Origin: Atopobiaceae bacterium
Lineage (GTDB): Bacteria; Actinomycetota; Coriobacteriia; Coriobacteriales; Atopobiaceae
Reading direction: 5' to 3'
Assembly: GCA_022482785.1 (NCBI GenBank)
Contig: JAKVON010000001.1
Coordinates: forward strand, 124,001-188,000
Length of the DNA: 64,000 nucleotides
Part shown: positions 3,137-59,334 of the stretch, piece by piece
How the letters are laid out: the number at the start of each line of letters is the position of its first letter
How positions within the stretch are numbered: position 1 is the stretch's first letter
Made by a program: the position numbers and the translations under genes
The notes under the pieces: generated by a model
The model's input: only the letters and a program-made list of their open reading frames with translations
What the model was told of the DNA's origin: nothing
The model's database searches: none

Positions 3137-3486
3137 CCCGTCACCTCCTGCTCCCGGGAGCCGGACGGACCGCGTTCGCCTGGCTTCGGGAGGACGCGCC
3201 CATTGTATTCCGCCATCCCCTCCATGTGAATGCGTCCCCTCCGATGCCGGCCCCGAAAAGGACGAGGCAGACGGACCCTTAACGAAGTCTTATGATTTCG
3301 CGTCATCTTTGCGTGGAAGGCACGAGTCGCCTTGGCCCGATGCGCACGTGAGCTGGGGCGGACGTCGTCGGGGGCATCGTCTTGGGGCGTGAGGGCCGGT
3401 TTCGAGACTAGAATCCCCAGGTATGGTTCACGAGGACGCAGAGACGACGCCGATGGGAGCAGACCGTCGGTCGGGGGGAAGCCCAT
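3137..3486. other. Divergent intergenic region between the ABC operon and the response regulator
   Basis: These 350 bases separate two divergent transcription units and show no convincing coding frame. A TAGAAT hexamer at 3409-3414 could serve as the -10 of the regulator gene; I see no good -35 at standard spacing. An AT-richer patch around 3279-3305, unusual for this DNA, may hold the minus-strand promoter. No clear operator palindrome was found. Confidence 0.4.
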
Positions 3487-4176: not shown

Positions 4177-4186
4177 GCGCGATTCC

Positions 4187-5107: not shown

Positions 5108-5144
5108 GTCTTCCTCCAGCTCTCGCCTTTTCCTTCCCGGGCGC

Positions 5145-42415: not shown

Positions 42416-43594
42416 CTACAGGGCCTGTCCCAGCACGTCCTCGAAGCCGGGACCCACGAACCGTGGGATCTCGTCCCTGAGCATGCGTCCCGAGTACGCC
42501 TCGTGGGGAAGCCTCACGAAGGGGACGTGGGAATGCCCCTCGAGCAGCACCTCGTAGAGGGGGTCGGCGATCACCAGGTCGGAGGCACGCATGATGCTTG
42601 CGACCTCCTCCTCGCCACGCACCGCGACGTCGGCGGGGCCGAGCATCGCACAGGGGTCCTCGAGCGGGCAGGCGATGCGGACGTTGCCCTCGCCGAGGTC
42701 ATGCGCCAGACAGTGGCGGAGCGAGGAGGCGAAGACCGCCTCGCCGACCACGGTTATCTTGCGGCCGCCAGAAGCCGCCGCATCGCCTTCGCCCAGCCGC
42801 CGCGCGACGCCATCCCGGGAGGTCTCGCTCACCATCCGGGCGAGCTCGGCCGAGGCGGCGGAGCCGACGGGGCAACCCACCACGTACGGCGTCCCATACT
42901 TCCTCGCCAGCACCTCGGCACAGTCGAGGCCGGACGACGAGACGACGATGTTGACATCGGCCTGCCCTGCCCGCATGAGCTGGTCCAGGGCGTCTCCCAT
43001 GGCCCAGCAGCTCACGAGCTCGAAGCCGCTCGTCTCGCAGAAGTCACGCAGGGCCTCGGCGTTTCCCACCACCGAGAAGTCGAGCGGGGTCACCCCGAGC
43101 AGGTTCACCCGAAGTCGGCCGCCACGAGCCGGGGCGGATTCGCCTCCCTCGGGGCAGAGACGCCCCGCGATGCCCGCGAACGCCTGACGCGCGCCTGCGA
43201 CGTAGCTCTGCATGCCGCTCGTCCTGAACCAGAAGGTGGGAATCCCGCAACGCCTTTCTATGATGTGCGCGACGCCTCGGAAGTCGGTGCCCATGAGCAG
43301 CGCCACCGGAGAGCCGAAGACTGCGACGAACCGGGGGTGGCGCTCCCGCGCGATCTCGACCACGTCGTCGATGTAGGCGTCATCGTTTCCCAGCACGGCG
43401 TCGTATTCCGAGAGCCCCGAGATGTAGACCATGCTGTCCATGTCGTACCAGCGCGGCTCGTCGTGTGTGGCGAAGGTGGAGTTGCAGCCCGACGCGTCGT
43501 GCATCACGATGAGCCCGCCCAGCTCATAGAGGGCAGAGCAGATGCCCGAGAGGTCACAGGCGTAGTTCGGGGTGTTCACGCGGGCCTGTCTCAT
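42416..43594 (-). CDS. Nitrogenase component 1-like protein, D-type, set 1
   Basis: 392 residues of the NifD/BchN/CfbD superfamily, shorter than NifD (about 490). Cluster-type cysteines are Cys13 (YACDLSG), Cys19 (GICSAL) and Cys37 (ASGCNSTF). The segment where NifD has its third ligand reads FGSPVALLMGTD, with Ser instead of Cys. FeMo-cofactor ligands are not recognisable, so nitrogen fixation is not supported. It aligns without gaps to the set-2 protein at 50502 over the first 49 residues. It overlaps the K-type gene by ATGA and would form a heteromer with it, reduced by the NifH-like protein at 44972. The substrate is unknown. Confidence 0.85.
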   Translation of the reverse strand: MRQARVNTPNYACDLSGICSALYELGGLIVMHDASGCNSTFATHDEPRWYDMDSMVYISGLSEYDAVLGNDDAYIDDVVEIARERHPRFVAVFGSPVALLMGTDFRGVAHIIERRCGIPTFWFRTSGMQSYVAGARQAFAGIAGRLCPEGGESAPARGGRLRVNLLGVTPLDFSVVGNAEALRDFCETSGFELVSCWAMGDALDQLMRAGQADVNIVVSSSGLDCAEVLARKYGTPYVVGCPVGSAASAELARMVSETSRDGVARRLGEGDAAASGGRKITVVGEAVFASSLRHCLAHDLGEGNVRIACPLEDPCAMLGPADVAVRGEEEVASIMRASDLVIADPLYEVLLEGHSHVPFVRLPHEAYSGRMLRDEIPRFVGPGFEDVLGQAL

Positions 43595-44979
43595 CGCCGC
43601 CCCTCCCCCACGCCATCCCGCGGACGCAGGCGGTAGTCCTCGATGCCTCGGGCCTTGACCTGGATGATGCTCCTCGCGTCCCTCTCGTCGCGGAACGCCT
43701 CCTCGAGCATGCCGGCGAGACGCGAGATGCCGGTGAACCCGAAGAGGCCGTCGTTCGAGATCATGTTGACGAAGCGGCCCGTGCCCGTGAAGTAGGCCGC
43801 CTTCTGCCCGATGGCCACGAGCTCCCGGCCGGCCTCCTCCGCGCGCCCCGCCGCATCGCGGCCGCGCAGGCGCATCCTGAAGTCGACCATCGCGCTCACG
43901 AGCAGGTCAGGATGATGCCGCCTCACCCAGTCGAATGCCGCCTCGTCACCCGGCAGGACGGCGTCGGCGTAGACCTCCGTTACCTCGAAGCCGTGCTCGA
44001 GCAGGAGTCGCGCGAGGCCGAACGGACGCGGCGTGGCGGCGGCGTCCATGCGTATCTCCGCCGAGCCAAGCACGCGGCGCGCCCGGCCGAGGTCCTCGCC
44101 TGCCCTGGCCTCCAGCGCATCGAGGTCTGGCATCCCGAGCCCGGCCTTTCCCGCGAGCGCCTGGAGCGACGCGCGAATCTCTTCGCCGTCCCATGAGTAG
44201 GGCAGGTAGACGGCCTCCTGGCCGAGCCTCTCGCCGAGGTCGCGGACGGCCTCGGCCGCCACCGGCCAGTGGTAGACGTTGAGCCAGCTCGTGGCCATGT
44301 CCAGATAGTCCTGGTAGGTCTCGGCGTGGCAGAGGTCGCGCAGGCGGCAGCCCCCGGATGCCAGCATGGAGACGATCTCGCATCCGGGGTCGAGGGCGAA
44401 GGGGCTCCCGATGGTGTTGACGGAGCGGCGGTCGCGCGCGGCCGGCCTCAGCACCGCGTAGTTCTGGCGCCACTGGACGTCCTCGTAGCCGAGCTTCGAC
44501 CTGCGCATCGTGCAGTTCATGTATGCCGGCACGAAGTCGATGTCGGGAAAGCGCCCCGCGAGCTCGTCGAGCAGGTGCGGGACGTCGAGCGCCATCAGGT
44601 CATGGATGCAGGAGGAGGCCACGAACACGCAGGGGGGCCGCCTGCCGAGCCGGTCGAGGCAGTCGGACACCCCCTCGTAGACGAGCTCCTCCATCGAGCC
44701 GTCATAGAGGGCCTCCTCGCCCACCTCCACCATCGAGAAGCGATCGGAGAAGCCACCCTCCGCCGCGGAGAGCACCACGCCGCGCAGGCAGTTGCCAGGG
44801 CATACGTAGACCTCGTGCGCGCCGGGCACGAGCATGGGGGTATGGGCGATCGTCCAGGTTCCCCGGGCAGGCGGGGTGTACTCGGCCCCCACGGGAAAGA
44901 GCGACGTCCCCTCGACGTCGCCGATGCGACGCTCCGCGAGGTCAACGGGCACGCGCGGCGCGCTGAGGGGCTCAAGCAT
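43591..44979 (-). CDS. Nitrogenase component 1-like protein, K-type, set 1
   Basis: 462 residues. Candidate cluster ligands are Cys60 and Cys64 ([11 protein letters not shown]), Cys117 and Cys124 ([12 protein letters not shown]). The spacing of 60 residues between Cys64 and Cys124 matches Cys71-Cys131 of the set-2 protein at 51683, and resembles NifK Cys95-Cys153. [12 protein letters not shown] is a family-like opening. It is probably the partner of the D-type protein downstream. Start ATG 44979 overlaps the NifH-like gene by eight bases. Confidence 0.85.
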
Positions 44980-45742
44980 GGGGCCCCTCCCCCTTCGCGA
45001 CGGCGAGTACCTGGTCCGCGAGGGCGCGGTACGCCTCGGCCGCGGGGCTTGCGGGGAAGGCCTCGAGCACGGTCTCGTGCAGCTCGTCGGCGTCCTGCAC
45101 CGTCTCGGAGCGCTCGAGGGAGCCCACGACGTGCGAGTGGATGTCCTCGCAGAGCTTTGCGACGCTCTCGTCCTCGTTCCTCACGTCGCGACGGTTCAGG
45201 ATGACCCCGCCCAGCGTGGCGTAGTCACGCTCCTGGAAGGTCTCCACCGCGAGGGCGATGTTCATCGCCGCGTGGATGGACATCGCCTCGCCCGAGGTGA
45301 CGATGAAGACCTGGTCGGCATAGCCCTCGCGGATGGGCATGGAGAATCCCCCGCACACCACGTCGCCGAGCACGTCGAACATCACGACGTCTGGTTGGTA
45401 GACGTCGTAGGCATGCTTCTCGTCGAGGAGCTCGAGGGCGGCGATGATGCCGCGACCGGCGCAGCCCAGCCCGGGACGGGGACCTCCCGCCTCCACGCAG
45501 AGCACGCCCGCATACCCCGGCGTGACGAGCTCGTCGAGCGAGACGCCGCGGCCACGGGCGCGCAGCGCGTCCACCACCGGCTCCTTCGCCACGCCATGGA
45601 GCAGGTTGATCGTGGAGTCGGCCTTGGGGTCGCAGCCGATCTGCATGACGGCGAGCCCGGACTGGGCGAAGGCGACCGCCAGGTTGGAGACCGTGGTCGA
45701 CTTCCCGATGCCGCCCTTGCCATAGAACGCGAGCTTGTACAT
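44972..45742 (-). CDS. NifH-like ATP-dependent reductase, set 1
   Basis: 256 residues of the NifH/BchL/CfbC family. The P-loop is GKGGIGKST. The two cysteines that bridge the [4Fe-4S] cluster across the homodimer are present, Cys94 (GLGCAGRG) and Cys130 ([10 protein letters not shown]), as is DPKADST. It should deliver electrons, driven by ATP hydrolysis, to its own component 1, most likely the two proteins encoded directly downstream. It follows hypE by 18 bases. It shares about the same length and motif positions with the set-2 protein at 52982. Confidence 0.95.
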
Positions 45743-45760
45743 GTCGTCGTCTCCCCTCGC

Positions 45761-46771
45761 TCAGCAGATGCGCGGGAGGAGCTCTCCCGTGGGCTCGGGA
45801 AGGATCGCCTCGCTGCCGATGGGCGTGTGGATGACGACCCTGCCGGCATGCTCGGCCGTGACGCGGCCGATGAGGGCGGCACCCGCGGTGTGCTCGCTCG
45901 CGCGCAGCGCGTCGAGGGCGGCCTGCTCGCTGCCCGCAGGCACGATGACCACGACGCGGCCCTCGCAGGCCAGGTAGAGCGGGTCGAGCCCGAGCATCCC
46001 GCAGACGCCTGCCACGGCGTCGTCCACGGGGACGGCCTCCTGGTCGAGGCGCACCCCCACGCCGCTCTGCTCGCAGATCTCGTAGAGCACCGTGCCCACC
46101 CCTCCCCTCGTGGCGTCGCGGATCACGTGCGTATCGGGCACCGCGCCGAGCAGCGACGCGACGCCCGCCGCCAGAGGGGCGCAGTCGCTCGTGACGTCGG
46201 CCTCGATCTGGAAGTCGTTCCGCGCAAGGAGGATCGCGCATCCGTGGCGGCCGACGTCGCCGCTCACGATGATCGCGTCGCCCGGCTCGGCCTTGTCGCC
46301 CGCCGGCGCGACGCCCTCCATGACCTGGCCGACCCCGGCCGTCGTGATGAAGCAGCCATCCACCTGGCCCCTCTTCGCGACCTTGGTGTCGCCGGCCACG
46401 ATCTCGACGCCCACCTCGGCGGCGGTCGCCTCCATCGAGCTCGCGATGCGCTCGAGCGCGTCGAGGGGAAAGCCCTCCTCCAGCACGAACGAGCAGGTGA
46501 GATAGAGCGGACGGGCCCCCATGCAGGCGACGTCGTTCACCGTCCCGCAGATGGAGAGCTTGCCGATGTTGCCGCCGGGGAACTCCGCCGGAGACACGAT
46601 GAAGCCGTCGGTGCTCATGGCGATCCTGCCGGCAGGCGCCTCCATCACCGCTGCGTCATCTGCGGTGAAGTGCGGGTTGTCGAAGTGGCTTCGAAAGATG
46701 TCGTGGATGAGACGGGCGGACTGCCTGCCGCCCGCGCCGTGCGCCAACGTGATGCGATCCTGTTCCATCAT
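45761..46771 (-). CDS. hypE: Hydrogenase maturation protein HypE
   Basis: 336 residues. HypE dehydrates its C-terminal S-carboxamide to a thiocyanate that supplies CN to iron. The protein ends in PRIC: the terminal Cys that carries the group is intact. ATP-binding blocks are LAHGAGGRQS, DDAAVM, STDGFIVSP, GTVNDVACMGARPLYL and RDATRGGVGTVLYE. Two adjacent ATG codons follow AGGAGG; the second is better spaced. It works with HypF (carbamoyl donor) and HypC-HypD, all encoded just upstream. Confidence 0.97.
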   Translation of the reverse strand: MMEQDRITLAHGAGGRQSARLIHDIFRSHFDNPHFTADDAAVMEAPAGRIAMSTDGFIVSPAEFPGGNIGKLSICGTVNDVACMGARPLYLTCSFVLEEGFPLDALERIASSMEATAAEVGVEIVAGDTKVAKRGQVDGCFITTAGVGQVMEGVAPAGDKAEPGDAIIVSGDVGRHGCAILLARNDFQIEADVTSDCAPLAAGVASLLGAVPDTHVIRDATRGGVGTVLYEICEQSGVGVRLDQEAVPVDDAVAGVCGMLGLDPLYLACEGRVVVIVPAGSEQAALDALRASEHTAGAALIGRVTAEHAGRVVIHTPIGSEAILPEPTGELLPRIC

Positions 46772-46777
46772 GCCCTC

Positions 46778-47827
46778 CTACCGGGAGATGTCGTATTTGA
46801 AGAACGCCGAGCACGCGCCCTCGCTCGAGACCATGCATGCCCCCACGGGATGCTCGGGCGTGCAGGCCGTCCCGAAGAGCGGGCACGCGTTCGGGCTGAT
46901 CTTGCCCTGGAGCACGTCGCCGCAGCGACATCCGGGGTTGGCCCGCCCCTCGATCGTGGGCACGTCGTACTTCACGCGCGCGTCGAAGTCGGCGAACCCG
47001 TCTTTGAGCCTGAGGCCCGAGCCCGCGATGACGCCGAGGCCGCGCCACTCGGAGTCGACGGGCTCCATCATCTCGGAGACGATCCTGCGGGCGGGGACGC
47101 TCCCCTCGTCGCTCACCACGCGCGGGTAGCAGTTCACGAAGAACGGCTCGCCCCGCTCGCTCATGCGGACGATCACCGCGAGGGCGGCGAGCAGCTCGGA
47201 GGCCGTGAACCCGGCGACGACGCCCGAGACCCCCTCGCCGAGCAGCTCGCGATAGATCGCCGTGCCGGTCATGGTGCTCACGTGCCCGGGATAGAGGAAC
47301 GCGTCGGCCGAGCCCTTGAGCGCACGATAGGCGTTGTCCATCGTCTTGTTGGCGGTGAGCAGCGAGAAGTTCGCGAGGCCGCGCCCCTTCGCGTTCCTCA
47401 CGGCGATGCAGCTCGCAGGCGTCGTCGTCTCGAAGCCCACCGAGAGGAAGACCACCTGCTCGTCGGGATGGGCCTCCGCATACCCCTGCGCATCGATCGG
47501 CGAGTAGACCATCTGCACGCGGGCCCCCTCGGTGCGCGCGGATGCGAGGCTCCCGCTGGTGCCCGGGACCCTGACGAGGTCGCCGAACGTACACACCGTG
47601 CAGCCACGCTCGAGGGCGAGGAACAGGGCCTCGTCGATGTAGCCCACGGGCGTCACGCAGACCGGGCAGCCCGGTCCAGAGATCAGCCGGAGCCCCTCGG
47701 GCAGCATGCCGCGGATTCCCAGCCTGAAGATCTCGTGGGTGTGGGTGCCGCACACCTCCATGATGCGCAGCGGCCGCCCGTCGTAGGAGCGGATGAGCTC
47801 GGCCGCCCTCCTCGCGTTCTCGTTCAT
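46778..47827 (-). CDS. hypD: Hydrogenase maturation protein HypD
   Basis: 349 residues. HypD is the iron-sulfur scaffold where Fe(CN)2CO is built with HypC. The motifs are MEVCGTHTHE, SGPGCPVCVTP, GFETTTPA and the C-terminal cluster site NPGCRCGDVL, NACPLFGTACTPEHPVGACMVSSEG (in part). It overlaps hypC by ATGA, so the complex partners are translationally coupled. Confidence 0.97.
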   Translation of the reverse strand: MNENARRAAELIRSYDGRPLRIMEVCGTHTHEIFRLGIRGMLPEGLRLISGPGCPVCVTPVGYIDEALFLALERGCTVCTFGDLVRVPGTSGSLASARTEGARVQMVYSPIDAQGYAEAHPDEQVVFLSVGFETTTPASCIAVRNAKGRGLANFSLLTANKTMDNAYRALKGSADAFLYPGHVSTMTGTAIYRELLGEGVSGVVAGFTASELLAALAVIVRMSERGEPFFVNCYPRVVSDEGSVPARRIVSEMMEPVDSEWRGLGVIAGSGLRLKDGFADFDARVKYDVPTIEGRANPGCRCGDVLQGKISPNACPLFGTACTPEHPVGACMVSSEGACSAFFKYDISR

Positions 47828-48069
47828 GCCCGAGCCTGCGAGTCGGCCGAGGACCCTCCGGGGAGCACGGCGTCGAGCAGCGCGTCGGCCTCGTCCTCGT
47901 CGCTCGAGGTGATGCGCGCGATGGCCGCCCCCGCGTGGATCATCACGTATTCGCCCGGCTCGAGGTCATCGACGAGCTCGGCGGATACCGTACGCCTGGC
48001 ACCCGTCGCCTCGACGACCGCCACCCCATCCTTGACCTGCATCACCTTCGCTGGAAGTCCCACGCACAT
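47824..48069 (-). CDS. hypC: Hydrogenase maturation chaperone HypC
   Basis: 81 residues from ATG 48069. The essential N-terminal MCVGLPAKV, with Cys2, is present, followed by DLEPGEYVMIHAGAAI. HypC carries the iron between HypD and the hydrogenase large subunit. The start lies one base past the hypF stop. The last 25 residues are longer and more acidic than typical. Confidence 0.95.
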   Translation of the reverse strand: MCVGLPAKVMQVKDGVAVVEATGARRTVSAELVDDLEPGEYVMIHAGAAIARITSSDEDEADALLDAVLPGGSSADSQARA

Positions 48070-48070
48070 G

Positions 48071-50505
48071 TCACGCCACCCCAATCCTCTCGTCTTTTCC
48101 GCCATCGCGGGAGATCCCGCGAGCCATTCCGAAGAGCGCCTGGCCAAGCGCGATGCCGCCGTCGTTGGGCGGGTACATCGCATGGCGCAGGACGCGGAAC
48201 CCCTCTCTCTCGAGGCCTCTCTCGCACAGGTCGAGGAAGAGCACGTTTCCCATCACCCCGCCGCTCAGGGCCACCGTCGAGAGGCCGCTGGCGCGCCGGC
48301 AGGCCACGCAGCCGTCGACGACGGCGGCGGCCATCGCCTCGTGGAACCCATAGGCCAGCGCATCCGCATCCTGCCCGGCGACGTGCCGAGTCGCAAGCTC
48401 GGCCACGAGCGGGGCCACGGGGATCGAGAAGCGGCCCTCCCCGTCGAAGGCGAGCCTGGGACGCGCAAGCGGCGAGACGCTGCCCTCGCACGGGATGCGC
48501 CCGGCATGGCGCTCGGCGGCGAACTGGAGCACCATCGCGGCCTCGCTCTCGCAGGTGGAACGATGCCTGAGCCCGAGGGCGGCCGAGGCCGCATCGAAGA
48601 CGCGCCCGGCGCTGCTCGAGGCCACGGAGTTGATGCCGCCCGCAATCATCGACCTCACGAGGTCGAACTGGGCGCCTTCGCAGATGCCTGCGGCGAGCGC
48701 GAGGGCCCGGGCCGCCTCGGCCCCATCGCAGGCCTCGAGGAGGAGCGCCACGGCGACCCTCCATCCCTCCCGTGCCGCGAGGTCCCCGCCCGCCTGGGAG
48801 AACGTGCCGAGATGCCCCATGCGCTCGAAGGAGCCCATGCTCGCGAGGAGGAACTCCCCTCCCCAGACGGTCGCGTCGTCGCCATAGCCCGTCCCGTCGA
48901 AGGCGACCCCAATCACGGGGTCGAGCCGGCCGTTCTCCGCCATGCAGGCAAGCACGTGGGCATAGTGGTGCTGGACCTCGACCACGGGTATCCCCGCCGC
49001 CTCCGCGAGCTCGTGGGCGAGCGCCCTCGAGTTGTAGAGGGGATGGGCGTCGCACACGACGACCTCGGGGCCGATCTCGAGCAGCTCCGACATGCGGGCG
49101 ACGGCCTGGGAGAGCGCCGCGACGCTGCGGACGTCCGAGAGGTCGCCCACGTAGGGCGCCATGTACATGAGGCCGCCGGACGTGAGGCAGAACGCGTTCT
49201 TGAGCTCGCCCCCGATGGCGAGACCGGAGGGGCCTGGTCGAGAGGGGCGTCGACCATGCAGGGAAGCGGCGCGTAGCCCCGCGAGCGACGCTGCATGTAG
49301 GGGCCGCCGCGGTGCCACGCCATGACTGAGTCGTCCGCCCGGAGCCTGATGGCCCGGTCGTTCGTGAGGATCGCGTCGCACATCCCGCCGAGGCTTCCGA
49401 GCACGTCGGCATCGTCGCGGCAGATGGGGGCACCCTTGGGGTTGGCGCTCGTCATCACGAGGCAGTCGCTCATGGGCCTGCCGTCCGGGTAGTCGAACAC
49501 GAGGAGCTGCACGGGCGCATAGGGCAGCATGACCCCCACGTTGGGGTTGTCGGGCGCGACCGAGGCGGCCAGCCTGGTGGCAGGCCCGCCCTCCGCGCCG
49601 TCGCGCCGGGCAAGCAGCAGGATGGGCTTGTTGGGGCCGTCCAGGACCTCCTCCTGGCCGGGGAGCACCACGCACTCGCGCCGCACGGCGTCGAGGTCGC
49701 GGGCCATCACGGCGAGGGGCTTGAACGGGCGGTCCTTGAGGGCGCGCAGCCGTGACACGGCCTGCTCGTTGGTGGCGTCGCAGCACAGGTGGAAGCCCCC
49801 GACGCCCTTGATGGCGACGATGCCGCCCCGCCCTATCACGCCTCGCACGTAGGTGATGGCCTCGCCTCCGCGAAGGCTCGGGGCCCCGTCGCCGACGGGA
49901 AGCGTGAAGACCTCGGGGCCGCAGTCGTTGCAGCAGACCGGCTGGGCGTCATAGCGCCTCGAGGCGGGGTCCGCGTACTCGCGGGCACACTCGGGGCACA
50001 TCGGGAACTCCCCCATGCTCGTGCGCTCGCGGTCGTAGGGCATCGAGTCGAGAATCGTGACGCGCGGGCCGCAGGCGGTGCAGTTGATGAACGGATGCAG
50101 GTAGCGCCTGTTCGAGGGGTCGAACAGCTCGGCCTTGCACGAGTCGCAGACGGCGATGTCGGGCGAGACGAACATGGCGCCCGCCTCGCGCTCGCTCTCC
50201 ACGATGCGGAACGCCCGCTCCCCCGCGTCGATGCCTGCGGCCGGCATGGCCCCCTCCGGCCATTCGTCGCCCTCTCCCAGCTCCCTGCTCTCCGTCTTGA
50301 GGACGGCGGAGCGCGCGGGCGCCTCCTCCGCGAGGGCCCGCTCGAGCTCGTCCAGCTGACGCCGGCTGCCCTCCGCGAAGACCTCCACGTACGAGCCCCT
50401 GTTGCTCACGGTCCCAGAGACGCCGACCCTCGTGGCGACCCGATCGACGAAGGGCCGGAAGCCCACGCCCTGGACGATGCCGAACATGCGGATGCGGCGC
50501 CTCAT
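48071..50505 (-). CDS. hypF: Carbamoyltransferase HypF, interrupted by one frameshift
   Basis: Restoring one base near 49235 joins two frames into about 811 residues. The order is acylphosphatase domain (GIVQGVGFRPFVDRVA), two zinc fingers (CDSCKAEL, NCTACGPR, CPECAREY, CCNDCGPE), a YrdC-like domain (IVAIKGVGGFHLCCDA), then the Kae1-like domain (VEVQHHYAHVLACMAENG, GTGYGDDATVWGGEF, SGGVMGNVLF). The break falls in CAGGCCCCTCCGG of the minus strand after VDAPLDQAP. HypF makes the carbamoyl group for CN ligands from carbamoyl phosphate. The remaining reading frames are intact on both sides, so I favour a sequencing error. It overlaps the upstream gene by ATGA. Confidence 0.9.
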
Positions 50506-51686
50506 AGCCGTTCCGCCTCCGCGAGGCCGGCGAGGAAGCCCAGCTCGGAGGCAGGGGCGAGGACCTCTCCCGAAACCGCGAAGTGAGGGAGCGGGGCCAG
50601 GAGGACGCCGGTGCCCCGGAGCGCCCGGCCGAAGAGCCCGTCGGCGACGACCAGCTCGTAGCCGCGGGAGCGAACCAGCTCGACGAACTCGTTCTCGCCC
50701 TTGAGGTAGAGGTCCCCCTCCCGCATGAGGCCCTCGTCCATCCGGAAGAACGAGGCGACGTCCACGCGCGCGCCGGAGCGCGCCGCGAGGCGCGCGCGCA
50801 CCTCGTTGGCGAGGACCTGCTGGTGCACGACGAGGGCGCTGGACGCGTGGCCGAGCGAGGAGGCGAGCGCGCCGATCGACCCGTCGAGGGCCGCCGACGC
50901 GGGGTCGTCGCCGCCGAGCGCGAGCCCCACCTCGAGCTCGGCCCCGCTCTTCCGCGCGATCTGCCTGGCCACGAGATAGCCTGCAGGAGAGGTCGCGAGC
51001 AGGCGCGGCGTCTCGAGGGCATGGAGGAAGGCAGGCAGCCCGGCGCCCATGCCATACGTCGCCGAGGCGAGGCCGCGCGAGGAGAGGCGGGCAGAGAGCG
51101 CCGCGGCGCTGTCCGCGGCCGGCAGGTCGAGCGGGGTCGCCCCCCAGACGCCCACGTCGCACGTGCCGCCGTCCCGCTCCGCGAGGCTCTCGTGCAGGGC
51201 GGCGGCCGGCGTCGGGACGCCGCCCTCCGCATCGCGCCTGCCGCGCTCGACGAGGGCCAGGATCGCCCGATAGGCCTTCGCCTCGCCCCTCTCGTAGAGG
51301 TCCATCCCGGTCGTGTCGATCCAGATGGCGGCTATTCCGAACCTCTTCTCGACGACATGGCAGAGCGCCTGGTAGTCCGTGGCGATGACGGAGGGGACGG
51401 GCGTCCCCACCAGGGCGACGAACGCGGGGTCGCACGCCTCGATGGCGTCGCCCAGCTTGCCCAGCAGCCGATCGTCCCTGCCCAGGATGGCATCCATGTC
51501 GCGCAGGCCCGCGGAGAAGACGGCGCTTCTCGTCCGGGACCAGCGCGGCTCGTCGAAGCCGCAGATGTTGCCCGCGCACCCGCCGGCGTCGCACACCACG
51601 ATCATGCCGCCCAGCTCGTAGAGAACCGAGACGGCACCCGACTGGTCGGGCGAGAAGGGAGAGAGGTAGCGGTAGAGTCCCCTCAT
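50502..51686 (-). CDS. Nitrogenase component 1-like protein, D-type, set 2
   Basis: 394 residues from ATG 51686, overlapping the K-type gene by ATGA. The opening (SPDQSGAVSVLYELGG) lines up residue for residue with the set-1 protein at 42416, but Cys13 is Pro and Cys19 is Val here. Cys37 (AGGC) is kept and Cys32 and Cys42 are new. At the third NifD ligand position it has VGTPVPSVIATD. Its cluster environment must therefore differ from set 1. The DEPRW motif is shared. The function is unknown; it is probably the partner of the K-type protein at 51683. Confidence 0.8.
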   Translation of the reverse strand: MRGLYRYLSPFSPDQSGAVSVLYELGGMIVVCDAGGCAGNICGFDEPRWSRTRSAVFSAGLRDMDAILGRDDRLLGKLGDAIEACDPAFVALVGTPVPSVIATDYQALCHVVEKRFGIAAIWIDTTGMDLYERGEAKAYRAILALVERGRRDAEGGVPTPAAALHESLAERDGGTCDVGVWGATPLDLPAADSAAALSARLSSRGLASATYGMGAGLPAFLHALETPRLLATSPAGYLVARQIARKSGAELEVGLALGGDDPASAALDGSIGALASSLGHASSALVVHQQVLANEVRARLAARSGARVDVASFFRMDEGLMREGDLYLKGENEFVELVRSRGYELVVADGLFGRALRGTGVLLAPLPHFAVSGEVLAPASELGFLAGLAEAERL

Positions 51687-52978
51687 CGCGCGCCCCCCTC
51701 GAGAGCCACCGACAGCTGGTCGAGCAGGTCGACCAGTCCGCGGTAGCCGAAGGGCTGCGCCTCGGAGTTCCATGCGACGTTGGCCGATCCCGGGCAGTAG
51801 GCACCGGCGTCCTTGCCGATGCTCGCGTCGGCGCCCTCGTCGGACGCGTAGTTGACCATCGTCGGCGATATCCCCGCATAGACGCGCGTCTGGGGAGAGG
51901 CCGCGGCGAGCCTCCTGATGTGGGGGTGCTGCCCCTCGGTCACGTTGGAGAACACCGCGGGCACCACGAGCCCCAACGAGACGAGCGCGCAGGCCAGCTC
52001 GAAGGGATCGGCATTGCACATCTCGCCCACGGCGACAGAGGCGCCCCAGTAGCGCTCCGAGAACGACTCGCAGGTCCGGCGAGCCTCGTCGAGGTACGCG
52101 CCGTCATCGAGCCCGATGCCCACGCCGGATGCGAAGAGCTGGTACTGCCGGTGGATCCTCTCGGGGTCGTAGAGCCGGGCGAGCTCGACGTAGGGCATCC
52201 CGAGCCGCTGGCGGAGGTCCTCCGCGGCCGGGCGCGCCTCGGGATCAAGGACCAGGTTGAAGTTCGCCGCGCCCAGCCCGCGGTACTCCTCGAGCGTGCG
52301 CATGGCCGAGACCTGGTTGACATGGCGGATGCCAGCCGCCCTCAGGAGCGCGAAGAGCTCGCCCCGTGGGTCGAGCGGGGTGAAGAAGCCCATGAGGTTG
52401 ACCGTGTCGGGCCTCACGTCGAGGCGTTCCACCAGCGAGTAGATGGTCGTGCGGATGGCAGACATCGGGGGGCGCCTCCCCTCTCGCTCGAGGGCGTACA
52501 TGTAGCTCGGCACCACGTCGACGCCGCACCGCTCCTGCGCGGCGCGGCACACTCGCTCGAGGTCGGTGCCCATGAGGGCGTCCACGCAGGTGATGCACAC
52601 CACGACCACCTTGGGCACCGGGTCGCACGCGGACAGGATCTCCTCGATGGCCTCGGGAATCTTCGAGAGGTGGTTGCCCGTGACGAGGTCGCTCTCGCTC
52701 ATGAGCAGGTAGAACAGGCGATCGGCATACCCCTCCTCGGTGCTCAGGACCGTCGAGTTGCGCGCGCAGGCGTCGGGCGACACCAGCAGCATCACCGACT
52801 CGGGGATGACCAGGGTCGCGCGCTTGACGCCGAAGCCGAGCGCCCCTGGCGAGTTGTAGGCGAGCGTGGCGGGAGAGCTGTAGATGAGGTGGCAGGCGGG
52901 CACGAAGTGGTCGGGGATGTCCCCCCTGCCCCGTCGCGCGAGCTCGGCGACCGTGATGTTGTAGGGAGCTGCTGCCAT
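51683..52978 (-). CDS. Nitrogenase component 1-like protein, K-type, set 2
   Basis: 431 residues. Candidate cluster cysteines are Cys71 (SPDACARNS), Cys128 and Cys131 (VVVCITCVDALMGTDLE). The last stretch is a strong component-1 signature. It is related to the set-1 protein at 43591 with the same 60-residue spacing between its two conserved Cys. The start is three bases after the upstream NifH-like stop and the end overlaps the D-type gene, so the set is made as a unit. Confidence 0.83.
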   Translation of the reverse strand: MAAAPYNITVAELARRGRGDIPDHFVPACHLIYSSPATLAYNSPGALGFGVKRATLVIPESVMLLVSPDACARNSTVLSTEEGYADRLFYLLMSESDLVTGNHLSKIPEAIEEILSACDPVPKVVVVCITCVDALMGTDLERVCRAAQERCGVDVVPSYMYALEREGRRPPMSAIRTTIYSLVERLDVRPDTVNLMGFFTPLDPRGELFALLRAAGIRHVNQVSAMRTLEEYRGLGAANFNLVLDPEARPAAEDLRQRLGMPYVELARLYDPERIHRQYQLFASGVGIGLDDGAYLDEARRTCESFSERYWGASVAVGEMCNADPFELACALVSLGLVVPAVFSNVTEGQHPHIRRLAAASPQTRVYAGISPTMVNYASDEGADASIGKDAGAYCPGSANVAWNSEAQPFGYRGLVDLLDQLSVALEGGAR

Positions 52979-52981
52979 GGG

Positions 52982-53743
52982 CTAGCCCACGTCCCCTCGG
53001 GATGCGGACAGAAGCCCGGCGAGATCCACGAACTTCCTGCTCAGAGGCAGTGTGGGGTCTCCCTCGACAATGGTCTTGCCCTCCTCCTCGAAGCGGTTGA
53101 TGTCATCGCTCCGAGGGATGTCGGCGAGGACGTCGAAGCCATGGGCATCTGCGAAGGCACGCACCTTCGCCTCCTCGTCCGGCACGTTCCTGCGGTTGAG
53201 GACGATGCCGCGGACCTTGGCGTAGTTGCGGTCGGAGAAGTTGTCGACCGCCTTGGCGATGTTGCCCGCCGCATAGAGCGACATCTTCTCGCCCGACGTC
53301 ACGATCAGGACCTCGTCGGCGTAGCCCTCCCGGATGGGCGCGGCGAACCCGCCGCACACCACGTCGCCGAGCACGTCGAACAGGACGACGTCCGGCTGCT
53401 CGCGCTCGAGGAGCCCGAGCTCGTCGAGCAGGGCGAAGGTCGTGACGATCCCCCGTCCCGCGCAGCCCACGCCTGGGGTGGGGCCTCCCGTCTCTATGCA
53501 GCGCACCCCACCGAACCCCACCCGCATGACGTCGTCCAGCTCGGGGGGCTCGTCGTGTTCGCGCATGTAGTCCATCACGGGCTGCAGGGGCTCGCCTGCG
53601 AGCAGGTTGATGGTCGAGTCGGCCTTGGGGTCGCATCCGATCTGGATGACCCTCCGGCCCGTGGTCGCGAAGGCCGCGGCGAGGTTTGAGGTGACGGTCG
53701 ACTTGCCGATGCCGCCCTTGCCGTAGAGCGCGATCTTCAGCAT
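52982..53743 (-). CDS. NifH-like ATP-dependent reductase, set 2
   Basis: 253 residues from ATG 53743, overlapping the hydF stop by seven bases; the longer frame upstream shadows hydF. P-loop GKGGIGKST, Cys94 in GVGCAGRG, Cys130 in [10 protein letters not shown] and DPKADST are all intact. It should be an electron donor to the K-D pair directly downstream. Close likeness to the set-1 NifH (44972) suggests an ancient duplication of a whole H-K-D module. Confidence 0.95.
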
Positions 53744-54966
53744 GCGGGCCTCCCCGTCGTGCCGTCGCCCAGCTCGGCCAGGACGTCGGGGAACAGCTCC
53801 AGGCTCCGGCGCAGGATGCCGTGCATCTGGGCGATGGCGATGCCGTAGTTGGTGAACGGCACCCCCTGCTCGCGGGCCCTCCTCCGCCTGCTCGTGACCT
53901 CGGCCTCGTTGAGCATGCAGGCGCCGCAGTGGAGCACCAGGTCGAACCCCGTGAGGTCGTCCGGGAACTCTCCGCCGGAGGTGTAGGAGAAGTCGAGGTC
54001 GGCCCCGGTGTAGCCGCGAAGCCAGCCGGGGAGCTTCACGGTGCCGATGTCCTTGCACTGCCGATGGTGCGTGCAGCCCTCCGAGACGAGCACGCGCGAG
54101 CCGTCCCGCAGCCCGTCGAGCGCGGCCGCGCCCCGCACGGCGTCGCGCAGGAATCCCTTGTGGCGAGCCATGAGGATGGAGAAGGAGGTCAGGGGCACGT
54201 CCCCTGGCACGATCCCGGCCACGACCCCGAACGCCTGGCTGTCGGTGACGACCATGCGGGGCGGGGCGGCGAGCGAGCCGAGGGCGCCCTCGAGCTGGTC
54301 CTCGCGCGTCACGACGTTCACCGCCCCGGCGTCGAGCACGTCGCGGATGGCCTGCTGCTGGGGCAGGATCATCCTGCCCTTGGGGGCGGCCGTGTCGATG
54401 GGGGTCACGAGCACGACCATGTCACCCGGCGAGAGGAGGTCCCCCACGATGCGGGAGTCGAGCGCCTCGTTCGTGGTGAGGCGCGCGATGCGCTCCTTGA
54501 GCCCGTCGATCCCCTCGAGCGTGAGGGCGCTCGCGTATGCCTCGTGGCCCCTTGGCTCGGGGCGCACGGAGAGCAGGTCGCATTTGTTGCGGACGACGAG
54601 GTAGGGCAGGCCGCGACGCTCGAAGAGCCCGACGAGCTCGGCCTCGGAGGGCGTCAGGTCCCTGGTCGCGTCGGTCACGAGGACCGCGACGTCGGTGCGG
54701 TCGAGCACGCGGCGGGCACGCGCCACGCGCTGCTCGCCGAGGGCCCCCGTGTCGTCGAAGCCCGGGGTGTCTATCACGACCACGGGCCCGAGGGGCAGGA
54801 TCTCCATCGCCTTCGAGACCGGGTCGGTGGTGGTGCCGAGCGTGTCCGAGACCACCGAGAGGTCCTGCCCGGTCACGGCGTTGACCAGGCTCGACTTGCC
54901 GGCGTTCCTCAGCCCGAAGAAGCCGATGTGCACCCTCTCGCTGGACGGCATGTCCGTGAGGCCCAT
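53737..54966 (-). CDS. hydF: [FeFe]-hydrogenase H-cluster maturation GTPase HydF
   Basis: 409 residues. The GTPase domain has [10 protein letters not shown] (G1), IDTPGFDD (G3) and VRNKCD (G4). The C-terminal [4Fe-4S] site is complete: Cys298 and His300 in GCTHH, then His346, Cys347 and Cys350 in LHCGAC. HydF is the scaffold on which the binuclear [FeFe] centre is assembled before transfer to HydA. It starts one base after the hydE stop. The hydrogenase itself is not in this window. Confidence 0.96.
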
Positions 54967-54967
54967 C

Positions 54968-56080
54968 TCACTCCCCTCCTTCCAGACGACGGCACGCGGC
55001 CGCCGCCCGCTCGCGTGCGCCCGCGCCCGCCCCGAAGCCGGGCGCGTCGCCGCGTCCCACGACGAGGCGACGCCCGATCGACTCCATGCGCCGCCGCATG
55101 CATCCGATGCAGGCGGCGGAATCGTCGGAGACGCAGATCTTGTTGTCGTAGAGCAGGTAGTCCCCGCGCCTCTCCTGTGGGGTGAGGCTCGGCATGACGA
55201 CGTTGGCGCCGGCGAGGATCCCCCGCTCCCGCCCGTCGGGGGCTATGGTCCCCAGGGCCGTGGTGGCGGGAAGAAGGACGCCCGGCAGCATGAGGCGAAC
55301 GCAGCTGAGGAGGAAGAGCGTGTCTGCCAGGGTTCCCGCCCGCTCGCCAGCGAAGGGGGTGGCGTGATGGGGGACGAAGGGCCCCATGCCCACCATCTGC
55401 GGCTGGAGCTCGTGCAGGAACAGCATGTCCGCGGCGAGGTCGTCGGCCGTCTGGAAGGGGCTCCCCACCATCATGCCGGCACCCACCTGGTAGCCGATGC
55501 CCTTGAGGTCCCAGAGGCAGCGGATGCGATGCTCGAAGCTCATGTCGCCAGGGTGCAGCCGCGCATAGTGCGCAGGCGAGGCCGTCTCGTGACGCAGCAG
55601 GTAGCGATTCGCGCCGGCATCGAAGAGCGCCTGGTAGCTCTCGTGGGAGCGCTCCCCGAGGGAGAGGGTGATGGCGCAGTCCGGGAAGCGCTCGCGCAGG
55701 AAGGCCACGACGGGCACCAGGCGCTCGTCGTCGAAGCGCAGGTCCTCGCCGCCTTGGAGGACGAACGTGCGGAAGCCGAGCTCGTAGCCACGTCGGCAGC
55801 AGTCGAGGAGGACGTCGTCGGAGAGGCGGTAGCGGCGCAGGCCGGCGTTGGAGCGGCGCAGGCCGCAATAGAGGCAGTCGTTCTTGCAGACGTTGGTGAA
55901 CTCGACGATGCCGCGCAGGTAGACGGCATCGCCGAAGACGCCACGCACGACCGCGCGCGCTCGTTCGGCGGCATGGGACTCGTCGTCCGGCGTCCTGTTC
56001 TCTATGAGGCCGACCCAGTCACGGTGCGAGAGCGCATGCTCCGCCTCGAGACGGGCCAGCAGGTCATGTGTCGTTGACAT
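54968..56080 (-). CDS. hydE: [FeFe]-hydrogenase maturation radical SAM enzyme HydE
   Basis: 370 residues. The radical-SAM site is Cys65-x3-Cys69-x2-Cys72 (VCKNDCLYCG). The second, optional HydE cluster motif is also present: Cys316-x7-Cys324-x2-Cys327. FVLQGGEDLRF and GSPFQTADDL are family blocks. HydE acts on the HydG-derived Fe(CO)2(CN)-cysteine complex to build the [FeFe] core. It lies 39 bases after the TM1266-type gene and is followed by hydF. No hydG is in the window. Confidence 0.95.
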   Translation of the reverse strand: MSTTHDLLARLEAEHALSHRDWVGLIENRTPDDESHAAERARAVVRGVFGDAVYLRGIVEFTNVCKNDCLYCGLRRSNAGLRRYRLSDDVLLDCCRRGYELGFRTFVLQGGEDLRFDDERLVPVVAFLRERFPDCAITLSLGERSHESYQALFDAGANRYLLRHETASPAHYARLHPGDMSFEHRIRCLWDLKGIGYQVGAGMMVGSPFQTADDLAADMLFLHELQPQMVGMGPFVPHHATPFAGERAGTLADTLFLLSCVRLMLPGVLLPATTALGTIAPDGRERGILAGANVVMPSLTPQERRGDYLLYDNKICVSDDSAACIGCMRRRMESIGRRLVVGRGDAPGFGAGAGARERAAAACRRLEGGE

Positions 56081-56118
56081 GGCTGTGGGCTGGGGCTCAG
56101 GGAATCGCGACGTCGCGG

Positions 56119-56391
56119 CTACTCGCCGGCGACGCCGTCCTCGAACTCGTAGGTGGAGTAGGCCACCTTGACGCTCACGCCCTCGAGGGCCCCCACCTTG
56201 CCGGCGACGTGGCTGATCGTGTCCTGGGGGGCGTCGAGCACCAGGCTGATGATCGAGATGCCGCGCTTGGGATAGGGGATGCCCATGCGACCCACCACGT
56301 AGGACCGTGCCTCGTGGAGAATCTCGTTGATCGTCTCGACCGACTCCGGGTCTTCGACGATGATGCTCAGTGCCGCTACGCGCGTCTTCAT
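56119..56391 (-). CDS. TM1266-type iron-only hydrogenase system regulator
   Basis: 90 residues of an ACT-like, NikR-C-type small domain: VAALSIIVEDPESVETINEILHE (in part) followed by RMGIPYPKRGISIISLVLD. Proteins of the TM1266 group usually sit beside hydE/hydF/hydG. It is the first gene of the long minus-strand operon and has GAGGAAG before its ATG. The regulatory mechanism is unknown. A TATGAT -10 with an upstream TG lies about 80 bases ahead. Confidence 0.9.
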   Translation of the reverse strand: MKTRVAALSIIVEDPESVETINEILHEARSYVVGRMGIPYPKRGISIISLVLDAPQDTISHVAGKVGALEGVSVKVAYSTYEFEDGVAGE

Positions 56392-56637: not shown

Positions 56638-59334
56638 TTGCCCACATCGCAGGAAATCTTCGAGAATGCCCTCGTCCCGATTCTGGGCATCTGCGTCCTC
56701 ATCCCCCTGTTCGTGGCCATCTTCATTGAGCCTAGGAGGGACTACAGCCGCCGCGTCTATTCCCTCATGCTCTTCGCCTGTGTCGGGATCCTCGCGACCG
56801 AGGCGTGCGAATGGGTCTCGAACGGCCGCGCGGTCGGCATCTGGCTCGACGTCTACCGCACCACCCAGTGTCTCCTCTTCGTCTTCCTCGCGGCGGCGTG
56901 CTTCCTCTGGACGGTCTACTCGTACTACTGGTTCAACGGCCATGGACCCTCGGGGAGGGTCTTGGCCGCCCTCGCGCTGGGGCCCACCCTCGACGTCGCC
57001 TTCCTGGTCGCGAACCTCTTCACGGGCAGCATCTACTCGATAAGCGCGGGGGCGCTCTACGCGCGCGGCCCGGCCTTCACGGCCTTCATCCTCTTCTGCT
57101 ACGTCTACCTGATCGTCGCCATCATGGCCACGGCAATGCACGCCCCCGCGGCGGACCAGGCCAGCGAGGAGAGGGGCGCGCGGCTGTTCCTCCTCTTCTT
57201 CGTCTTCCCCGTGGTGGGGCCGGTGCTCCAGTACGCGCTTCCCGAGATCCCCGTGATGGGCATCTCCCAGGCGATCTCGCTGCTGGCCATCTACGTCGCC
57301 GTCCAGCAGCGCACCAACGAGAGCTACGCCGTCGAGATGGCCCGGCTCCAGGACGAGAGCGCCCGCTACGAGAGGTCGATGGAACGGCTCCTCTCGATCG
57401 ACCCGGGGGCCCTCTCGTCGTTCCGCCTCAACCTGACCAAGAACACGTTCGCCAACCTCCACGAGAGGTCGGGGATGGTCGGGGAGCGGATTCGCCACGA
57501 CACCATGGACGGGCTCGTCGAGGCCGTCGCGTCGCTCGTCACGGAGCAGGGCGAGGCCGCGGCGTTCCGCACGCTGTTCAGCAGGGAGAACCTCCTCGCC
57601 CGGTTCTCCGAGAACCAGGCCCAGCTCTCGTTCGACTACCACCGGATGCTCGACAGCGGGGAGTCGCACTCGGTCAGGACGAACCTGACCATGCTCTCCA
57701 ACCCCACGACGAGGGACGTCGAGGCCATCGCCTACACGGTCGACGTCGACACGCAGGAGAAGGACGAGCGGGTCATCTCCGCGATCACGACGAGGGAGTA
57801 CGACTACATCGCCCTCATCGACGTGGAGACGAGGCGGATACACTTCCGCCGGGCGGCGCGGAAGGACGCGGACTCGTTCGGCTTCGGGCTCGGGGACTAC
57901 GACCAGGTCATCAAGAGGACGATCGTCGAGACCTATGGGATCCAGGGGTCGGAGGAGCGGTTCCGGAAGGTCGCCTTCGACGTCGTCCGCAAGGCCCTCG
58001 CGCAGGAGCCCGAGTACAGCATCGTGTTCTCCTGCCCCTCCCCCACGGGTGACGAGATCCAGAAGAGGACCACCTTCCAATACCTCGACGACGAGCAGAA
58101 CGAGATCCTCTTCTTCCGCAACGACATAACCGAGGAGATGCGGCAGGAGTGCGAGCATGCCGACGCCCTGCAGACGGCGCTCCTGCAGGCCGAGCACGCG
58201 AACGCCATGAAGACCGAGTTCCTCTCGAACCTGAGCCACGACATGCGAACCCCCCTCAACGCCGTCCTGGTCTATGCCGCCCTGTCCAAGACGGAGAAGG
58301 ACCCCGGCAAGGCGAGGGGCTACCTCGACGGCATCGAGCAGTCCGGGCGGATACTCCTCTCGCTCGTCAACGACACGCTCGACCTCTCGAGGATCGAGAC
58401 GGGAGCGGTGACGCTGAGGCCCGAGCCCACCCCCTGCCAGGACGTCGTCTCGAAGATCATCCTGACGATCAAGCCCATGACGGACGCGAAGCACATCCGC
58501 CTCGTCGTCGACAACAGCCGTGCCGTGATGGCGACCATCGACATCGACGCCCTCCGCGTGCAGGAGGTCTTCATCAACCTCCTCTCGAACGCCGCCAAGT
58601 TCACCCCCGAGGGCGGCACCGTGACGTTCGCGATAGAGAGCGAGGAGCGGGAGGGCGTCATCCGGGACAGGGTCACCGTCAGCGACACGGGATGCGGCAT
58701 GAGCCCGGAGTTCGTCCCGAAGATGTTCGAGCCGTTCTCGCAGGAGGACCCTGCCTCGTCGGCGGGCGTCTCGGGATCGGGGCTCGGGCTCTCCATCGTG
58801 AAGAGGCTCGTCGACCTGATGGGCGGCACCATCGAGGTCAAGAGCGAGCAGGGCAGGGGCACCGCCGTCACGGTCTGCCTCGACTTCAGGCGCATCGACA
58901 CCGGCGAGGGGGCGAAGAGGCCGCCCGAGGGCCGGCTCGAGGGGCGGACCATCCTCCTGGCCGAGGACAACGCAATGAACACCGAGGTCGCGAAGGCCCT
59001 CCTCGAGGGTGCCGGCGCGGAGGTCGTCTGCGCCAAGAACGGGAAGGTCGCCTGCGACCTGTTCTCCGGCTCGGGGGAGGGCTCCTTCGACGCCATCCTC
59101 ATGGACCTCCGCATGCCGGTCATGGGCGGGCTCGAGGCGGCCCGCACCATCAGGGGCATGGACCGCCCCGACGCAGCCGCCATCCCCATCGTCGCGGTCT
59201 CTGCGGACGCGTTCGACGACAACGTGCAGGCAAGCCTCGAGGCGGGCATGGACGGGCACGTCGCGAAGCCCATCGACCCCGACAGGCTCTTCGGGCTGCT
59301 CGACGAGCTCGGCGCGGGCCACGCCCGCGGCTAG
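56638..59334 (+). CDS. Hybrid sensor histidine kinase with multi-helix membrane sensor
   Basis: 898 residues from a TTG at 56638. About seven hydrophobic helices (residues 10-225) precede a coiled linker and a PAS-like region (about 290-500). The kinase core follows: HisKA box NLSHDMRTPLNAV, N box INLLSNAAKFT, G1 DTGCGM and G2 GSGLGLSI. A receiver domain ends the protein (ILLAEDNAMN, phosphoacceptor ILMDLRMPV, VAKPID). No HPt domain is fused. It is divergent from the Hyd/Hyp operon and converges with the second hybrid kinase, sharing the four bases CTAG as both stops. Confidence 0.92.
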   Translation: MPTSQEIFENALVPILGICVLIPLFVAIFIEPRRDYSRRVYSLMLFACVGILATEACEWVSNGRAVGIWLDVYRTTQCLLFVFLAAACFLWTVYSYYWFNGHGPSGRVLAALALGPTLDVAFLVANLFTGSIYSISAGALYARGPAFTAFILFCYVYLIVAIMATAMHAPAADQASEERGARLFLLFFVFPVVGPVLQYALPEIPVMGISQAISLLAIYVAVQQRTNESYAVEMARLQDESARYERSMERLLSIDPGALSSFRLNLTKNTFANLHERSGMVGERIRHDTMDGLVEAVASLVTEQGEAAAFRTLFSRENLLARFSENQAQLSFDYHRMLDSGESHSVRTNLTMLSNPTTRDVEAIAYTVDVDTQEKDERVISAITTREYDYIALIDVETRRIHFRRAARKDADSFGFGLGDYDQVIKRTIVETYGIQGSEERFRKVAFDVVRKALAQEPEYSIVFSCPSPTGDEIQKRTTFQYLDDEQNEILFFRNDITEEMRQECEHADALQTALLQAEHANAMKTEFLSNLSHDMRTPLNAVLVYAALSKTEKDPGKARGYLDGIEQSGRILLSLVNDTLDLSRIETGAVTLRPEPTPCQDVVSKIILTIKPMTDAKHIRLVVDNSRAVMATIDIDALRVQEVFINLLSNAAKFTPEGGTVTFAIESEEREGVIRDRVTVSDTGCGMSPEFVPKMFEPFSQEDPASSAGVSGSGLGLSIVKRLVDLMGGTIEVKSEQGRGTAVTVCLDFRRIDTGEGAKRPPEGRLEGRTILLAEDNAMNTEVAKALLEGAGAEVVCAKNGKVACDLFSGSGEGSFDAILMDLRMPVMGGLEAARTIRGMDRPDAAAIPIVAVSADAFDDNVQASLEAGMDGHVAKPIDPDRLFGLLDELGAGHARG

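Follow-up and report, generated by a model that had tools for sequence, protein, structure and literature searches.

A candidate HydG-independent route to the [FeFe]-hydrogenase H-cluster in an operon of Hyd, Hyp and nitrogenase-like genes

What might maturases of [FeFe]-hydrogenases, maturases of [NiFe]-hydrogenases and two nitrogenase-like protein sets be doing together in one operon? The question is raised by 13 genes lying at 56391-42416 on the minus strand of a 64,000-nucleotide window (the whole stretch of DNA analysed, positions 124,001 to 188,000 of contig JAKVON010000001.1) from an Atopobiaceae bacterium whose genome assembly (G000) has 33 contigs, 2.61 Mb and a completeness of 85.5%. 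In order, these genes encode a TM1266-like regulator, HydE, HydF, a NifH-like ATPase with two nitrogenase-like partners (H1, K1, D1), HypF, HypC, HypD, HypE and a second such set (H2, K2, D2). The answer that we favour from sequence comparisons, at a probability of about three in four, is that HypCDEF and the two NifH/NifEN-like complexes replace HydG in building the centre of the [FeFe] H-cluster, with the NifEN-like proteins serving as machines of assembly and not as its clients. It is suggested by the near-complementarity of the operon to HydG, by an ordinary HydE, by the [FeFe]-hydrogenase domains of operon-bearing genomes and by the position of hydA next to the operon in some of them.

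All 13 genes of the original prediction, with their order and strand, were confirmed by profile matches. The compactness that it had described (gaps of at most 39 bases, with overlaps) also held, since the largest intergenic gap measured is 38 bases and there are six overlaps of 4 to 8 bases each, taking the ATG at 50505 as the assumed start of hypF. HydE (528 bits against TIGR03956, cut-off 255), HydF (516 bits against TIGR03918, cut-off 326), HypD (380 bits, cut-off 193) and HypE (406 bits, cut-off 252) exceed their NCBIfam equivalog cut-offs by far, while the four K and D proteins come nowhere near any. The TM1266-like match scores 99 bits and that of HypC 73 bits, the C-terminal domains of HypF were matched, and H1 and H2 match Fer4_NifH at 283 and 287 bits; the Oxidored_nitro scores are 108 bits for K1, 28 for D1 (slightly below the cut-off of 28.6), 35 for K2 and 90 for D2. 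No aligned row departs from the key cysteines of HypC, HypD, HypE and HydE, which leaves these proteins able in principle to carry out the chemistry known for their families, given the roles usually assigned to Cys2 of HypC, the C-terminal cysteine of HypE and the cysteines of HypD and HydE. Scans for promoters and terminators found none.

The arrangement is not peculiar to this genome, but occurs in many anaerobes of the gut and rumen. A first set of 100 genomes (the host's own, 60 of the same family and 39 of the same order) was examined by Oxidored_nitro search and region maps; the operon is present in 14 of them, all in the window's family, counting one (G053) whose contig ends before K1. 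A scan of a genome collection covering 84,980 species was then made with a K1 alignment, from which the K1 of G012 (broken in L027) and that of the near-duplicate G036 were left out. It gave 321 relatives, the best 80 loci of which were kept, with the K1 match of highest identity in Atopobium sp. UBA2090 (L064). Those best 80 span several phyla, with Clostridia, Megasphaera, Absicoccus, Treponema, Lentisphaeria and Olsenella among their holders. The Clostridia with the operon include Clostridium ljungdahlii, C. ragsdalei, C. carboxidivorans P7, Coprococcus comes, Ruminococcus bicirculans and Eubacterium pyruvativorans, and Olsenella profusa (L124) and O. massiliensis (L128) are among the K1 relatives. 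Profile mapping of the 80 loci, many of them cut by contig or flank ends, found H1 in 80, K1 in 80, D1 in 79, hypC in 69, hypD in 69, hypE in 67, K2 in 57, D2 in 56, the regulator in 48, H2 in 42, hydE in 29 and hydF in 25, some of these being partial. All six of H1, K1, D1, hypC, hypD and hypE are held by 67 loci, on one strand in every case and in the same order in 66, which places the arrangement beyond chance. On the chromosome of R. bicirculans (L138, L216) all thirteen genes lie on one strand.

The recurrent core is thus H1-K1-D1-hypF-C-D-E, usually accompanied by K2-D2 and in many loci by hydE, hydF and the TM1266-type regulator. Scattering of the three blocks over separate loci in relatives, on which the idea of a joint pathway had been staked, was not what we saw: the core stays together, as for the most part does K2-D2, though hydE and hydF are less fixed in place (in G008 and G038 the two are found on contigs other than that of the core; in G031 and G056 this is true of hydF only). 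That part of the original prediction, a joint system, is supported by the co-occurrence of the genes over several phyla, by HydE in all 14 operon genomes of the first set and by the lack of a [NiFe] large subunit in the family, described below. A fusion of K1 with D1, giving a single protein of about 800 residues, is found in several Atopobiaceae (L024, L124, L128 and others). Where H2 is missing from the locus, one NifH probably serves both K-D pairs. A conserved client beside the operon that had escaped notice was considered and rejected, since none of the neighbouring genes, when clustered over the 80 loci, proved to be a recurrent and specific companion; the largest group, of proteins that resemble ABC ATPases in sequence, has members in 9 of the 80.

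The operon and HydG are seldom found in the same genome. HydE over its cut-off is found in 21 of the 100 first-set genomes, namely the 14 with the operon and the seven that have HydG over its cut-off, an overlap of zero with a chance probability of 9e-6; HydG over cut-off was accordingly found neither in the window's own genome nor in any of the other 13 first-set genomes that carry the operon. HydF is over cut-off in 22 of the 100, the extra genome (G004) carrying a fragment of HydG. A second set was built of 291 Clostridia, R. bicirculans (G116, chosen as centre for having the operon) and 290 others from its class; here a K1 orthologue was called at 600 bits or more, and presence of HydE and absence of HydG were read, as for the family, from E-values against the curated cut-offs. 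Of these genomes 183 have HydG, 194 have HydE and 7 have a K1 orthologue, and all seven, the centre included, fall among the 18 that have HydE and lack HydG (Fisher 1e-9, or 1.6e-8 without the centre). Through 50 of the 80 kept loci, less L072, 49 operon genomes were reached, three of which are also in the other sets, and HydG over cut-off is lacking in all but two of the 49. In the complete genome of C. carboxidivorans P7 and the one-contig G036, all matches in the HydG search are below cut-off and of the size of ThiH or HydE, and the four operon-bearing Megasphaera (G102, G103, G137, G146) have no HydG over cut-off, G146 being also without a match of HydE size. The HydG-bearing members of the window's family are G013, G030, G047 and G052; hydE, hydF and hydG have been described inside equol gene clusters of Eggerthellaceae (PMC8898433), and these four may be related to that case.

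A specialised HydE in operon genomes was considered and rejected: no site separates the operon group (56 sequences from operon loci or genomes, a few of them from the same or near-identical genomes) from the HydG group (24 sequences) at thresholds of 85% and 70%, and the two groups are intermixed in a HydE tree. The labels change 10 times over this tree by parsimony, compared with a mean of 21 and a lowest value of 14 after shuffling, and 6 times when nodes with support below 0.9 are collapsed. Because HydEs of both settings intermix, both routes probably end in the same HydE substrate, and the tree argues that switches between them happened several times.

The genomes also contain genes for a possible client. 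The [FeFe]-hydrogenase domain (Fe_hyd_lg_C) is present in all 49 of the operon genomes reached through their loci and gives three matches in the window's own genome, and the three H-cluster motifs, read by the patterns that we take to define them, are all present in 19 of the 20 best hydrogenase loci read. In two genomes hydA is the next mapped gene upstream of the operon. In E. pyruvativorans (L071) one strand carries hydA (4266-6038), hydE (6422), hydF, the regulator, H1, K1, D1, hypF, hypC, hypD and hypE; in G306 (L215), hydA (3441-5183) is followed by H1 (5551)-K1-D1-hypFCDE-regulator-K2-D2-hydF-hydE. Among the 80 kept stretches L071 is the only one with a clear hydA neighbour, and L085 has a 30% identical protein. 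The window's family is represented by 61 genomes, 14 with the operon, and a [NiFe] large subunit was found in none of the 61; service of a [NiFe] enzyme by the Hyp genes was therefore rejected for this family.

By sequence, the nearest solved chain to both K1 (6e-15) and D2 (9e-18) is NifE. In an alignment that combined K1-D1 fusions with unfused K1 and D1, the D1 rows appeared to fall on K1, and the proteins folded were therefore K2 and K1. The K2 model (pLDDT 90.9) has the NifEN chains as nearest by fold (1e-15), with the iron nitrogenase close (1.9e-15). The best score of the K-D proteins with any NCBIfam nitrogenase model is 54 bits, where the NifE model requires 505, and none of them reaches the cut-off of a NifD, NifK, NifE or NifN model; K2 matched no NCBIfam model at E 0.01. 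The scores of the curated DPOR and CfbCD models were not reached by the K-D proteins either, and methylthio-alkane reductase was compared by fold only. The conserved cysteines of K1, D1, K2 and D2 would suffice for [4Fe-4S] clusters at the interfaces of the pairs.

A hint as to the order of action comes from three Clostridia (G217, G290, G376) that have HydE but neither HydG nor a K1 orthologue, and that carry K2-D2-H2 (K2-profile scores 615-658, L201-L203) with a FecBCD-type importer. The neighbours are hydE, hydF and the regulator in L201, hydE in L202 and the regulator in L203, where the importer ATPase is also fused to a TM1266-like domain. We take this to mean that K2-D2 works next to HydE and may be supplied in two ways, by Hyp with K1-D1 or by the importer. 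Less closely related H-K-D sets are also accompanied by an importer of this sort, in genomes that either lack HydE or have HydG; those of L211-L214 have K2-profile scores of 325-375, and their importer genes were called by sequence only.

A wider proposal, which we rate only a little above even odds, is that of a second, tyrosine-independent route to the H-cluster in which nitrogenase-type ATP-driven complexes turn an Fe-CN/CO unit made by the Hyp proteins into the substrate of HydE, the K2-D2/FecBCD variant importing its iron unit, so that one chemistry would link the assembly of the [NiFe], [FeFe] and nitrogenase cofactors. In the reading favoured above, HypF and HypE would convert carbamoyl phosphate to cyanide, which would be attached, as happens when [NiFe] enzymes mature, to an iron carried by HypC-HypD. 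At this Hyp stage H1 with K1-D1 would work as a low-potential, ATP-driven reductase; the simplest guess is that it provides CO or rearranges it (CO2 reduced to CO, or one CN swapped for CO). H2 (or H1) with K2-D2 might be a NifEN-like scaffold that holds and reduces a single-iron unit and passes on an Fe(CO)2(CN)-type synthon, which HydE would receive; from there HydE and HydF would do their usual work and load HydA. The division of steps between K1-D1 and K2-D2, like the source of the carbonyls, is guesswork.

No paper on this gene set or route was found in open-access full texts (bioRxiv lay outside the search), though a gap into which it would fit has been reported. PMC9431212 describes the CO and CN of the H-cluster as coming from HydG. 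For C. ljungdahlii, C. ragsdalei, C. coskatii and C. sp. AWRP it reports HydE and HydF with HydG not identified, and HypC-F without HypA or HypB. C. carboxidivorans is there given as lacking HydG and having HypA/HypB and two hypC-D-E sets, and C. autoethanogenum as lacking HypA/HypB, with a HydG assigned on motif grounds; the authors could not readily explain why HydG was missing. In the K1 scan the operon turned up in C. ljungdahlii, C. ragsdalei and C. carboxidivorans, and it would account for both acetogen gaps, that of HydG and that of HypA/HypB. An [FeFe]-hydrogenase complex has been isolated from C. autoethanogenum (PMC6288185), and the [FeFe]-hydrogenase of Megasphaera elsdenii is mentioned in PMC12874204 and PMC7820892; as neither organism's genome is among the kept loci, these are leads.

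The K-D complexes could themselves be the clients, with HypCDEF and HydE/HydF building a new Fe-CO/CN cofactor for insertion into K1-D1 and K2-D2, which would then catalyse some further reduction. The original prediction had offered both an unknown iron-carbonyl/cyanide cofactor and the nitrogenase-like proteins as targets of maturation. The K-D genes do lie inside the operon, with no other specific gene recurring beside it; each pair keeps cysteines able to hold a cluster, the K-D family has relatives in HydE-less genomes, and the fold of K1 is nearest to a catalytic chain of nitrogenase. We nevertheless judge this explanation unlikely: it leaves unexplained the usual absence of HydG from operon genomes, the unspecialised HydE and the hydA genes beside the operon, and K1 and D2 are nearest by sequence to NifE, an assembly scaffold. 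The HydG, HydE and hydA observations, with the [FeFe]-hydrogenase domain in all 49 operon genomes searched, point to the known H-cluster as the product and to the H-K-D proteins as assembly machines, so neither of the two earlier suggestions is now the best one. A partial replacement, in which cyanide comes from HypCDEF and both H-K-D sets belong to some other pathway controlled by the shared regulator, would suit the K2-D2 relatives that lie with a FecCD-type importer in HydE-less genomes and have no Hyp genes in the stretch read, a sign that the H-K-D family does a different job elsewhere; it is harder to reconcile with the fixed order of H1-K1-D1 and hypC-D-E (66 of 67 loci) and with K2-D2 lying by hydE or the regulator in the three HydG-less genomes that have no K1 orthologue (L201-L203), and seems to us improbable indeed. 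Mere pooling of genes at one locus, HydE/HydF for [FeFe]- and HypCDEF for [NiFe]-hydrogenases with H-K-D unrelated to either, might be argued from the Clostridium acetogens, which are listed with a group 1a [NiFe] hydrogenase in PMC9431212. The same text has HypA/HypB not found in five acetogens, the absence of HydG would remain unexplained, and without a [NiFe] large subunit in any of its 61 genomes the idea is not tenable for the window's family; overall we give it hardly any credence.

Several observations weigh against a replacement of HydG as we propose it. Of the 18 Clostridia with HydE and no HydG, eight (G213, G222, G247, G308, G331, G363, G406, G431) have neither K1 nor K2, and neither HydG nor a K-D gene was seen on the contigs around HydE in G247, G308, G331, G363 and G406. 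C. drakei and C. thailandense, 2 of the 49 locus-reached genomes, have HydG and the operon together. HydE in those 49 was judged through the HydG-profile search, with no search specific to HydE: 45 have some match and four none, and in the 13 of the 45 whose locus was inspected a profile match confirmed HydE. Many of the genomes are metagenome-assembled, and the window's own is incomplete. The K1 model (pLDDT 86.2) is nearest by fold to a chain of the MoFe protein (4e-16), with NifE next at 1e-14. The authors of PMC9431212 hypothesised the use of trace CO/CN or, in acetogens apart from C. autoethanogenum, a radical SAM protein of an atypical, HydG-like kind. Within the window's family, 43 of the 61 members are without HydE over cut-off, and 40 of these still have Fe_hyd_lg_C matches; one of the 40 is G004, with HydF and its HydG fragment, and the other 39 have hydrogenase-domain genes and no HydE, HydF or HydG over cut-off. 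In the two canonical-type hydrogenases read from HydE-less genomes, those of G002 and G005, the H-cluster motifs are retained, and identity to the hydrogenases of maturase-bearing genomes is 60-82%. Half of the operon genomes (7 of 14) give one or two hydrogenase matches only, like their maturase-free relatives. Since maturase-free members also carry them, hydrogenase genes alone do not demonstrate a client, which weakens the client argument within this family.

Coordinates of the operon genes are collected in Table 1. The hypF of the original prediction is present, but it is not one intact reading frame in this assembly: an N-terminal part from 50505 to about 49240 and a C-terminal part from about 49230 to 48071 lie in different frames. 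As hypF is a single open frame of 772-831 residues in 11 of the 13 relatives mapped, and as of the other cases one is truncated at a contig end and the breaks of L064/L026 coincide with runs of N, the frameshift is likely an assembly error.

Table 1. Genes of the operon, by position in the window. Row counts refer to aligned relatives; matches below 75% of query length or containing stops were left out.
Gene and product	Coordinates	Strand	Evidence and remarks
TM1266-type regulator of [FeFe]-hydrogenase systems (PF21699)	56119..56391	-	99 bits; in 48/80 related loci
hydE, radical SAM maturase	54968..56080	-	profile; C65/C69/C72 invariant, 28/28 rows
hydF, GTPase scaffold of H-cluster assembly	53737..54966	-	profile, row alignment
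H1, NifH-like ATPase	52982..53743	-	profile; C94, C130 invariant, 79/79 rows
K1, nitrogenase component-1 fold	51683..52978	-	profile, model; C71, C128, C131 invariant, 80/80 rows
D1, K1 partner (K1-D1 fusion in several relatives)	50502..51686	-	C37, C42 invariant, 72/72 rows
hypF, carbamoyltransferase	48071..50505	-	apparent frameshift near 49240
hypC, iron carrier	47824..48069	-	Cys2 invariant, 66/66 rows
hypD	46778..47827	-	nine invariant cysteines (26, 54, 57, 300, 302, 315, 322, 331, 339), 70/70 rows
hypE, cyanide donor, C-terminal PRIC	45761..46771	-	C336 invariant, 67/67 rows
H2, second NifH-like ATPase	44972..45742	-	not at locus in 9/14 operon-bearing family members
K2, nitrogenase component-1 fold	43591..44979	-	model pLDDT 90.9; C64, C124 in 55/55 rows, C60 in 53/55
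D2, K2 partner	42416..43594	-	nearest solved relative by sequence NifE; C37 invariant, 49/49 rows

Past D2 by 37 bases and on the same strand lies a gene (42378-41584) for a protein with DUF134 and a NifX-like (Nitro_FeMo-Co) domain, possibly a cofactor chaperone or sensor; as chaperone of this operon it was rejected, relatives being found at none of 100 other loci holding the operon or parts of it. Upstream are two hybrid histidine kinases with receiver domains, at 56638-59331 on the plus strand and 59334-61382 on the minus strand. Genes resembling cysteine synthase, by sequence only, lie near the operon in L117, L121, L128 and L215; cysteine is a ligand of the HydG product.

Should the replacement of HydG be as proposed, gut and rumen bacteria and syngas acetogens would make the same centre from carbamoyl phosphate with machines of the [NiFe] and nitrogenase types, and the HydG, HypA and HypB genes missed in acetogen genomes would be explained. 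Nitrogenase-like proteins would gain a new kind of job, and hydrogenase production in other hosts a new gene set.

Compared with maturation by HydE, HydF and HydG, the operon shares an ordinary HydE and HydF, a TM1266-type regulator and an [FeFe]-hydrogenase domain in the genome, but in place of HydG, not found in the genome, it has ten genes of two other systems. With HypABCDEF maturation of [NiFe] enzymes it has in common HypF, HypC, HypD and HypE with their key cysteines; it differs in the lack of HypA/HypB from the operon and of a [NiFe] large subunit from the family, and in its linkage to the H-K-D sets and HydE/HydF. The unassigned proteins that accompany a FecCD-type importer (L038-L041, L211-L214) belong to the same H-K-D family as those of the operon, but have no HydE, HydF or Hyp genes in the stretches read, and are perhaps the stock from which K2-D2 came. 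From nitrogenase itself (NifHDK/NifEN) the K-D proteins are set apart by scores of about a tenth or less of those of the curated NCBIfam nitrogenase models, whereas the component-1 fold and the NifH-type ATPase are the same and NifE and NifN are among the nearest solved relatives. The operon has one or two NifH proteins for two K-D pairs; NifH, for its part, serves both NifDK and NifEN.

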